A DNA stretch of 64,000 nucleotides, taken from Pseudomonas sp. ANT_H4. Its GTDB lineage: Bacteria; Pseudomonadota; Gammaproteobacteria; Pseudomonadales; Pseudomonadaceae. The position numbers and the translations under genes are program-made. This document shows positions 2,649 to 11,125 of this stretch, in pieces. Under the pieces are notes generated by a model that saw nothing but the letters and a program-made list of their open reading frames with translations, did not search any database and had not been told where the DNA came from. Each line of letters begins with the position of its first letter. Positions within the stretch are counted from its first letter, which is position 1. Location: NCBI RefSeq assembly GCF_008369295.1, contig NZ_VOBG01000006.1, forward strand, positions 62,001 to 126,000. The letters are read 5' to 3'.

Positions 2649-2658
2649 CTCCGGAGGG

Positions 2659-2679
2659 GTGCCCTTGGGCGCTTTTTTT
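2659..2679 (+). terminator. Short hairpin plus seven T just before phnF
   Basis: GTGCCC (2659-2664), loop TT, GGGCGC (2667-2672), one G-T pair, followed directly by TTTTTTT (2673-2679). This looks like a weak intrinsic terminator or attenuator between the transporter genes and phnF. The stem is only six pairs, so partial read-through is expected, which fits the downstream genes being in the same operon. Confidence 0.5.
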
Positions 2680-2683
2680 AACC

Positions 2684-3388
2684 ATGCAGTTGTCTAGACA
2701 AGATGAACCGGTGTACCGCGAACTCGCAGACATCCTGCGCCGCGAGCTGAGTGACTACCTGGCCGGCGACTTCCTGCCCGCCGAGGTGCAGTTGGCCGAA
2801 CGCTTCGGCGTCAACCGTCACACCCTGCGCCGCGCCATTGATGAACTGGTGTTCGAAGGCAGCCTGTTGCGCCGCCAAGGCAAAGGCACCCAGGTGCTGG
2901 AGCGGCCGCTGATTTACCCGATGGGCGCCGACACCGCTTACAGCCAGTCACTGTCGGCCCAAGGCTTGGGCGTGGAAGCGGTGCTGCTCAAGCGTCGCTA
3001 TTGCTTCGCCAGCCGCGAAGAAGCCGAGCATCTGGGCATCGCCGAGATGGCGCCGATGATCGAGTTGCAAACCCTGCGCAAGCTCGATCACCAGCCCGTC
3101 AGCCTGATCCGCCATCGCTACTGCGCCAGCCGCGCACCGCTGCTGGCGGACTACGTCGGCGGCTCCCTGCGCCATTACTTGCGTGAACGCGACCTGCCGC
3201 TGACCCGCACCCTGAGTCTGATCGGTGCCCGTTTGCCCAGCCGCGACGAAGCCGCGCTGCTGATGATGCCTCGGCATTTACCCGCGCTGAGTGTGTTCAC
3301 CCTTTCCCGCGATCGCGACGGCCACCCGGTGGAGCTTGCGCAGTCCACCAGCCGTTCGGATCGCTTCCAGTACCAGGTAGTGACCTGA
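2684..3388 (+). CDS. phnF: GntR/HutC-family regulator PhnF
   Basis: Transcriptional regulator found within phn clusters; 234 residues. The N-terminal winged helix-turn-helix (about residues 8-75) contains PAEVQLAERFGVNRHTLRRAI, the classic GntR recognition helix. A UTRA ligand-binding domain follows from about residue 95, with FTLSRDRDGHPVE near the end. The ATG at 2684 has no ribosome-binding sequence next to it; the nearest, GGAGGGG at 2653-2659, is 25 bases away with a hairpin between them. Its own 5' codons contain a HutC-type palindrome (2690-2701), suggesting autoregulation. The stop overlaps the phnG start. Confidence 0.92.
   Translation: MQLSRQDEPVYRELADILRRELSDYLAGDFLPAEVQLAERFGVNRHTLRRAIDELVFEGSLLRRQGKGTQVLERPLIYPMGADTAYSQSLSAQGLGVEAVLLKRRYCFASREEAEHLGIAEMAPMIELQTLRKLDHQPVSLIRHRYCASRAPLLADYVGGSLRHYLRERDLPLTRTLSLIGARLPSRDEAALLMMPRHLPALSVFTLSRDRDGHPVELAQSTSRSDRFQYQVVT
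2690..2701. promoter_or_regulatory. Palindrome TTGTCTAGACAA, candidate PhnF operator
   Basis: A perfect 12-base palindrome covering codons 3-6 of phnF. Its core GTCTAGAC fits the GT-N-TA-N-AC pattern of HutC-subfamily GntR operators, the subfamily to which PhnF belongs. The position just after the terminator-like hairpin suggests PhnF bound here could block elongation or a local promoter. This is an inference from motif and position. Confidence 0.5.
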
Positions 3389-3837
3389 TGGAGACCCAGA
3401 TGAACCCGTCCAAGCGACAATACTGGATCGGCGTGCTCGCCCGCGCGCGCCTCTGTGAACTGCAACCTCACGAAGACGCCTTGCGTGATGTGGACTACCA
3501 ACTGATCCGCGCTCCCGAAGTCGGCATGACCCTGGTGCGTGGCCGCATGGGTGGCAATGGCGCGCCATTCAACGTCGGCGAAATGAGCGTGACCCGCTGC
3601 GTGGTGCGCCTGGCCGATGGCCGTACCGGCTACAGCTATCTGGCGGGGCGCGACAAGCTCCACGCCGAGTTGGCGGCCCTGGCCGACGCGCATTTGCAGG
3701 GTGCGCAGCCGAGCCTTTGGCTCAGTGAATTGATCACCTCTTTAGCCAATGCCCAGGCCACACGTCGGGCGCAGAAAGAGGCAGAAACCGCTGCCACCAA
3801 GGTGGAGTTCTTCACCCTGGTCCGAGGAGAAAGCTGA
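3388..3837 (+). CDS. phnG: Carbon-phosphorus lyase core complex subunit PhnG
   Basis: Small subunit of the PhnGHIJ core complex, which carries out the first steps of phosphonate breakdown: coupling the phosphonate to a ribose triphosphate and cleaving the C-P bond. 149 residues, the usual size. Family features include the early RYW-like QYWIGVLARA and the conserved stretch around GEMSVTRCVVRLADGRTGYSYLAGRD. Its ATG overlaps the phnF stop (ATGA-type) and its stop overlaps the phnH start, so translation is probably coupled. An in-frame ATG 12 bases further in is an alternative start. Confidence 0.93.
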   Translation: METQMNPSKRQYWIGVLARARLCELQPHEDALRDVDYQLIRAPEVGMTLVRGRMGGNGAPFNVGEMSVTRCVVRLADGRTGYSYLAGRDKLHAELAALADAHLQGAQPSLWLSELITSLANAQATRRAQKEAETAATKVEFFTLVRGES

Positions 3838-10331: not shown

Positions 10332-10508
10332 CCGCACGCCTCAACTCCAAACCTGCCGGCCAACTCCAGTTTTAAATAAATCGTCCCTCCTTTATCAGCG
10401 CCATTTTAACAATCAGTAAAACAGCCGCCAGTCGGTCTGATGATTTCTGTGCTTGAGTAAAGGTAACTCTAGGGTTGCTTTTATTCGGCCGGAAGCAAGG
10501 AGGCTGTG
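10332..10508. other. Gap between phnP and the hicA-like gene
   Basis: 177 bases, visibly richer in A+T than the surrounding genes in its middle (about 10370-10430). It probably holds the promoter of the toxin-antitoxin pair, but I could not pick a convincing -35/-10 pair. The ribosome site AAGGAGG at 10497-10503 is strong. Confidence 0.4.
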
Positions 10509-10697
10509 GTGCAAAGCAGGCTATTGATAAAGGAGTTGCAAGAGGCAGGCTGGGTGCTGGATCGGGTCACGGGCAGTCATCATGTTTTCACCCGCCGCTA
10601 TAGCCCGTACACGATACCGGTGCCCCATCCCAAGAAGGATCTTCCCTTGGGTACCGTCAGGAGTATCAGGAAGCACGCCGGGTTGTTTTCGTTTTAG
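10509..10697 (+). CDS. hicA: HicA-family mRNA interferase toxin
   Basis: Short toxin of a type II toxin-antitoxin pair that cleaves mRNA in the cytoplasm. With the GTG at 10509 as start the product is 62 residues beginning MQSRLLIKELQEAGW, a common HicA opening; the spacing of five bases from AAGGAGG also favours it over the GTG one codon earlier. The double-stranded-RNA-binding-like fold shows the active His in GSHHVF (residues 22-27) and the family pattern TIPVPHPKKDLPLGTVRSIRK. The antitoxin gene follows after 23 bases. Intact, so probably functional. Confidence 0.88.
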   Translation: MQSRLLIKELQEAGWVLDRVTGSHHVFTRRYSPYTIPVPHPKKDLPLGTVRSIRKHAGLFSF

Positions 10698-10720
10698 GTC
10701 GGTTTTTCAGGAGGTTTTTC

Positions 10721-11125
10721 ATGCAATACCCAATCTGTATCGAATGGGGCGACGATCATATCGCCACCGGTATTCAGATCCCCGATATCCCAGGTGCGGT
10801 AACGGCCGGGGACAGTTTTGAAGAGGCTTACAACGCCGCAATTGAAGTGGCGCACATCATGCTGCAAGAGATCGCCGCAGAAGGCCGGGCCATTCCCATG
10901 CCGACGTCGGTTGCCGCGCACCACAGCAATGAGCAATACGCGGGGATGGGCTGGGGGATGCTGGAGTTGGATATCACGCCTTATCTGGGCAAGACCGAAA
11001 AGGTCAACGTGACCTTGCCCGGTTATGTCATCCAGCGCATTGACCGGTATGTGCGTGAGCATAAGGTCAAAAGCCGCTCGTCATTTCTGGCGGATGCGGC
11101 GTTGGAGAAGTTGGTTCGGTTGTAA
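10721..11125 (+). CDS. hicB: HicB-family antitoxin
   Basis: Antitoxin partner of the HicA-like toxin, 134 residues. The N-terminal half is the degenerate RNase-H-like HicB fold (YPICIEWGDDHIATGIQIPDIPG, then GDSFEEAYNAA). The C-terminal part, from about residue 95, has a ribbon-helix-helix DNA-binding pattern (KVNVTLPGYVIQRID, then SRSSFLADAALEKL), so it should repress its own promoter. AGGAGG precedes the ATG. Confidence 0.88.
   Translation: MQYPICIEWGDDHIATGIQIPDIPGAVTAGDSFEEAYNAAIEVAHIMLQEIAAEGRAIPMPTSVAAHHSNEQYAGMGWGMLELDITPYLGKTEKVNVTLPGYVIQRIDRYVREHKVKSRSSFLADAALEKLVRL

Follow-up and report, generated by a model that had tools for sequence, protein, structure and literature searches.

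A small hairpin appears to bring a distant Shine-Dalgarno sequence to the phnF start codon, beside a probable PhnF operator inside the gene

In a stretch of 64,000 nucleotides from Pseudomonas sp. ANT_H4 (the window), phnF appears to be translated via a small hairpin that folds a distant Shine-Dalgarno sequence (SD) up to the start codon, as judged from the comparison of related leaders. We consider it fairly probable that about 50 bases around this start form a two-layer control of phnF, which consists of a split ribosome-binding site at the RNA level and a PhnF operator at the DNA level. For the RNA layer, the strong SD is located 26 nt from the AUG, which would be too distant for it to work unaided, and the short hairpin would fold between the two elements and leave some 12 nt, so that the ribosome could then use the SD. 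The run of T following the hairpin (A in some relatives) would mainly serve as unstructured spacer, and in lineages with six or more T, among them that of the window, some of the transcripts may also end at the hairpin. For the DNA layer, PhnF sitting on codons 3-6 would check readthrough into phnF and the C-P lyase genes and would leave the transporter genes free. Comparison of the relatives shows conservation of the operator core, the hairpin and the spacing; we infer the use of the fold by ribosomes, the binding of PhnF and the block that bound PhnF would pose to RNA polymerase.

The gene order at this locus is phnC-phnD-phnE-phnF-phnG on the forward strand, and the start of phnC falls before the window. 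The permease gene phnE (1866-2648, stop codon at 2646-2648) adjoins the module on its 5' side, phnF (2684-3388, ATG at 2684) encodes a GntR/HutC-type regulator, and phnG (3388-3837), the first C-P lyase gene, follows on the 3' side. All three products scored above the curated NCBIfam cut-offs (PhnE, TIGR01097, 313.3 bits vs. 216.7; PhnF, TIGR02325, 167.3 bits vs. 156.8; PhnG, TIGR03293, 163.1 bits vs. 89), and the nearest named relatives of phnF belong to P. frederiksbergensis and other Pseudomonas. Between phnE and phnF, on the same strand, we found the detached SD GGAGGGG (2653-2659, core GGAGG at 2653-2657), the last G of which is the first base of the stem. The hairpin GTGCC-CTTG-GGCGC (2659-2672) consists of a left arm (2659-2663), the loop CTTG and a right arm (2668-2672), and its core has an energy of -6.0 kcal/mol. 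It is connected to the ATG by the spacer TTTTTTTAACC (2673-2683), in which seven T (2673-2679) give the structure a terminator-like look. The perfect palindrome TTGTCTAGACAA occupies codons 3-6 of phnF (2690-2701) and constitutes the probable PhnF operator. The original prediction had described a ribosome site detached from the start codon, a short stem followed by seven T, an ATG without adjacent SD and a HutC-type palindrome in codons 3-6. The SD, the five-pair stem with its T7 and the palindrome were found as described, the missing SD of the ATG is supported by comparison with relatives, and the palindrome is kept as DNA among them.

Such a layout is rare in the window. Of its 52 long open reading frames, none but that of phnF has six T in the 14 nt 5' of a possible start, and the full arrangement (far SD plus hairpin, no near SD) was found at 3 of 1873 ATGs, phnF being one and the other two probably chance. 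No known RNA family matched between positions 1800 and 3000 (Rfam, up to E = 1). We considered a leader peptide starting at TTG 2665, which has good SD spacing and opens a 10-codon frame ending within the palindrome; by eye, this TTG is not kept in relatives and the candidate was rejected. An exact 10-base inverted repeat (2637-2646 with 2701-2710) flanks the module, and it was dismissed as a module part because it is present in just 3 of 93 distinct contexts.

The 6.13 Mb genome contains the palindrome TTGTCTAGACAA only once in exact form. All near copies among the matches listed carry two mismatches and none carries one, and within 6 kb around phnC-phnF no further copy of the 10-base core was found when up to two mismatches were allowed. 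To put the census on an independent footing, a protein search of 398 genomes of the genus was used; here, the core TGTCTAGAC was present in all 103 PhnF genes recovered. The pattern ATGNNNNTGTCTAGACAA occurred in 100 of the 398 genomes, once in each, and the reversed pattern in none (0/398). These 100 are among the 103 PhnF genomes, and the remaining three (G133, G270, G401) deviate at one edge. In a sample of the phylum, ATGNNNNTGTCTAGACAA was detected in 3 of 398 genomes, all three from the genus. Outside codons 1-8 of such genes, AGA accounts for 11 of 3219 arginine codons (0.34%) and TCT for 30 of 1996 serine codons (1.5%). The core is thus invariant (103/103) even though both codons are rare elsewhere, which argues for selection on the DNA. 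A further count, in which 118 of 118 distinct genes carried TCT and AGA, is circular, since the search pattern required these bases, and the non-circular figure is 103/103. Selection at the DNA level on codons 3-6 is most likely for a PhnF operator, and codon usage disfavours a protein-level reason for these codons.

The probable operator sequence is also found outside the genus. Four of four Advenella loci carry ATGNNNNTGTCTAGACAA despite a protein identity of 51-52%. Among 31 Enterobacteriaceae loci, 26 have a TCYAGAC-type, AGA-bearing variant in the same codons, and the other five, including E. coli K-12, have ACA for AGA. In other Gammaproteobacteria with PhnF, a GTCTAGA-type site is located 5' of the gene in three of four loci (L144-L146), and the fourth (L143) has GTCTAGTC. 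At one locus from another family of the order (L009), phnE precedes phnF and neither operator nor hairpin was seen there by eye. Loci L010-L030 were left out because they encode other GntR proteins, not PhnF (27-30% identity among the matches listed). An Advenella query recovered PhnF in 0 of 120 genomes of a second family of the class, a sample that had no positive and is therefore uninformative. TTGTCTAGACAA fits the HutC operator consensus NyGTMTAKAC in the form quoted in the available excerpt of PMC4494728, and we infer that PhnF binds to 2690-2701.

To follow the hairpin across relatives, 181 loci with the operator core were collected, and since many represented the same or overlapping stretches, they were reduced to 110 distinct leaders; the Enterobacteriaceae loci (L148-L178) were excluded from these counts. 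The hairpin is present in 105 of the 110 leaders with 22 different arm pairs, and at all four Advenella loci. This set is anchored on the operator core; independent of that anchor, reading all 103 leaders of the PhnF genomes in the genus sample yielded the hairpin in 99 (absent in G070, G135, G175 and G133). When the arm halves were exchanged between leaders, with every exchanged pair searched afresh, which avoids the circularity of arms picked for pairing, the native combinations had a summed energy of -183.6, and the exchanged ones averaged -84.1 (sd 14.0, lowest -138.9); none of 20,000 permutations was as low as the native set. Restricting this test to 17 hand-thinned families gave the same outcome. 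The native partner was the best one for 6 of 22 left halves and 11 of 22 right halves, because strong or related arms can often pair equally well. Individual base shuffles gave p ≤ 0.05 in 13 of the 22 arm classes, which are related to each other, and the predicted hairpin probability was at least 0.5 in 19 of 22 (the window, L216 and L041 being below). Pair counts do not draw on a plain MAFFT alignment of these 22 leaders, in which the arms were shifted against each other. The hairpin is thus supported by arms that have changed and yet still pair in relatives; most relatives keep operator and hairpin, as far as their sequences tell, though the hairpin letters have changed many times.

The hairpin ends 9-12 nt from the ATG in all 105 hairpin leaders (search range 8-14), and no SD-like 3-mer occurs in the spacer of any of them (105/105). 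The linear distance between SD and ATG varies from 23 to 32 nt; subtraction of the hairpin brings it to 9-13 nt in all of the 105 leaders except L004 (17 nt). For the window, an aligned spacing of 26 nt shrinks to 12 nt when the 14-nt hairpin is removed. The idea that the fold brings GGAGGGG near the ATG is supported by this comparison, with a spacing of 12 nt rather than the about 11 originally proposed. In four of the five hairpinless leaders, an SD is found directly at 12, 12, 9 and 13 nt (L137, L138, L139 and L214, respectively); L206, in which we saw neither a credible hairpin nor a clear SD, was counted as hairpinless. Four of the seven leaders from a sister genus retain the hairpin with an A run replacing the T, and in L008 an insertion parts phnE from the module with the hairpin still beside the ATG. 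The spacing, the direct SD of leaders without hairpin, the A-run hairpins and L008 favour bridging over termination. Three observations temper the numerical side of this argument. Hairpin length correlated with linear spacing under one SD rule (rho 0.62, p 0.002) and not significantly under the other (rho 0.32, p 0.17). The effective spacing varies nearly as much as the linear one (sd 1.84 vs. 1.99), and its constancy is partly set by the search ranges. Moreover, Advenella and L126 have weak SDs that match at only 3 bases under the first of these SD rules. Several leaders have acquired additional sequence between phnE and phnF: L137, L138 and L139 carry long repeat-like stems there, with the hairpin lost and the SD direct, and similar-looking insertions are present in L008, which retains the hairpin, and in L206, which is without it and has ATT in place of the usual ATG.

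The hairpin resembles an attenuator in that a GC-rich stem is directly followed by T7, as in an intrinsic terminator, and 80 of the 105 hairpin leaders have six or more T. As an intrinsic attenuator, it would end part of the phnCDE transcripts and keep transporter expression above lyase expression, and operator-bound PhnF might increase termination by stalling the polymerase close to the T tract; we regard this reading as rather unlikely. Weaker stems do go along with more T (rho 0.68 for the 22 classes and 0.68 for the 18 classes without A runs), a statistic that ignores kinship. However, several lineages have the stem but lack the T tract: of the 105 hairpin leaders, 25 have T5 (3), T4 (6), an A run (4) or a shorter or broken tract (12), so that attenuation would be lineage-limited. 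Conversely, T tracts remain in the hairpinless leaders L137-L139 and L214, and in some Enterobacteriaceae (L176, L178) a T run lies near the start after a direct SD, with no hairpin by eye. The core stem amounts to just -6.0 kcal/mol, and it is absent from the hits of a consensus-based terminator scan, probably owing to G-U pairs that can extend the stem into the T tract. Taken alone, the window hairpin does not go beyond chance (shuffle p = 0.146; z = -1.43 for the 101-nt fold around it). Thus, the T tract of the original prediction holds here and in most relatives, and its attenuator function receives weak support. In another reading, the SD would be hidden by pairing with the T tract and opened by ribosomes ending phnE, so that phnF would be translated only with phnE. 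The minimum-energy fold of 2646-2690 contains the hairpin within an 11-pair stem that includes SD-T pairs (-11.6 kcal/mol), and in the window leader from -45 to +30 the core hairpin has a probability of 0.19 and the SD is unpaired with 0.20. Since the window SD is largely engaged in pairs, some of them with the T tract, and the SD of many other arm classes is mostly paired as well, this hidden-SD switch is a live rival. We nevertheless consider it improbable, because SD-T pairing is impossible in the A-run lineages, L008 keeps its hairpin far from the phnE stop and the SD is more open in some classes (0.68 in L007, 0.59 in L208, 0.53 in L008).

The least probable alternative, which we think very unlikely, is that the hairpin closes the phnCDE message as a stem for RNA processing or stability. 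The large repeat-like stems in the phnE-phnF gap of L137-L139 would suit it, as would a GC-rich stem with perfect pairing and a loop containing A9, located between phnD and phnE (1820-1847), perhaps itself a stability stem after the binding-protein gene; the hairpin, however, keeps its place relative to the phnF start (9-12 nt before the ATG) and not to the phnE stop, as L008 illustrates. On the DNA side, the palindrome, the sole strong copy of the probable operator in the genome, lies inside the transcribed unit and downstream of phnCDE, so that PhnF, if acting there, would act either on readthrough or on a local promoter. Its position makes a PhnF roadblock between phnCDE and the lyase genes a plausible candidate. 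A local phnF promoter under this operator is an unlikely substitute for the roadblock: it would agree with the GTCTAGA-type sites 5' of phnF in L144-L146, but no promoter was found between positions 1 and 8000 in a scan that covers the sigma-70-like type only. For the favoured split site, the hairpin could also serve opposite ends, being required for phnF translation and, with T6 or more, stopping some transcripts, with operator-bound PhnF holding the polymerase nearby. This combination is tentative and we would not bet on it. If it is true, phosphate starvation alone would govern the transporter genes, and regulator and lyase would additionally respond to PhnF and the ligand of PhnF. On the RNA polymerase footprints that we assume, a stall at the operator would leave the RNA ending at about 2672-2676, which coincides with or slightly precedes the position in the T tract where release usually occurs.

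Hairpin-bridged ribosome sites are known from phage T4, and our literature search returned no chromosomal example among the matches listed. According to the available part of PMC3014915, tested split sites of T4 genes 25 and 38 have SD-AUG distances that a hairpin reduces from 27 to 11 nt and from 22 to 5 nt, respectively. The phnF site resembles them in that an SD too far from the AUG is brought closer by an intervening hairpin (here 26 to 12 nt). Unlike these phage sites, as that part describes them, phnF is a bacterial chromosomal gene with many stem sequences, a frequent T tract and an operator in its first codons, and its split site is predicted from sequence. Natural repressor roadblocks are described for PurR, GalR, CcpA and CodY in the accessible portion of PMC10310618; as there, the operator lies in a transcribed region, a position from which a bound repressor can halt the polymerase, whereas the putative phnF site overlaps the start codons of the regulator's own gene and lies between transporter and lyase genes. 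LacI-stalled polymerase is removed mostly by Mfd, as stated in the excerpt of PMC4132739. For the phosphate response of the operon, P. fluorescens SBW25 produces PhnD when phosphate is depleted (PMC5082522). Like PhnF of Mycobacterium smegmatis, the protein is a GntR-family regulator of phn genes, but the mycobacterial one has two sites in a divergent promoter region (PMC7866108, as far as its excerpt goes), and here one site is predicted in the regulator's own coding sequence. We consider the phnF site a real and partly explained case, which is conserved and laid out like the T4 split sites but bacterial, and which goes together with a probable operator inside the gene. Since nature supplies 22 versions of the stem and several leaders that have lost it, the spacing rule is directly testable in a bacterial case. 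The arrangement offers a simple answer to how uptake and C-P lyase could be expressed separately from a single operon that responds to phosphate starvation and, if true, bacterial chromosomes may hold such split ribosome sites as a class that has been overlooked.

Two minor observations concern the surroundings of the module. Two GTCAT boxes with a spacing of 11 bp are located before phnC and outside the window (L083, 1850-1865); we take them to be reminiscent of a Pho box, and a scan with the 18-mer Pho-box consensus gave best matches only with 6 mismatches. Further downstream in the window, two small open reading frames (10506-11125) presumably resemble a HicA-HicB toxin-antitoxin pair.
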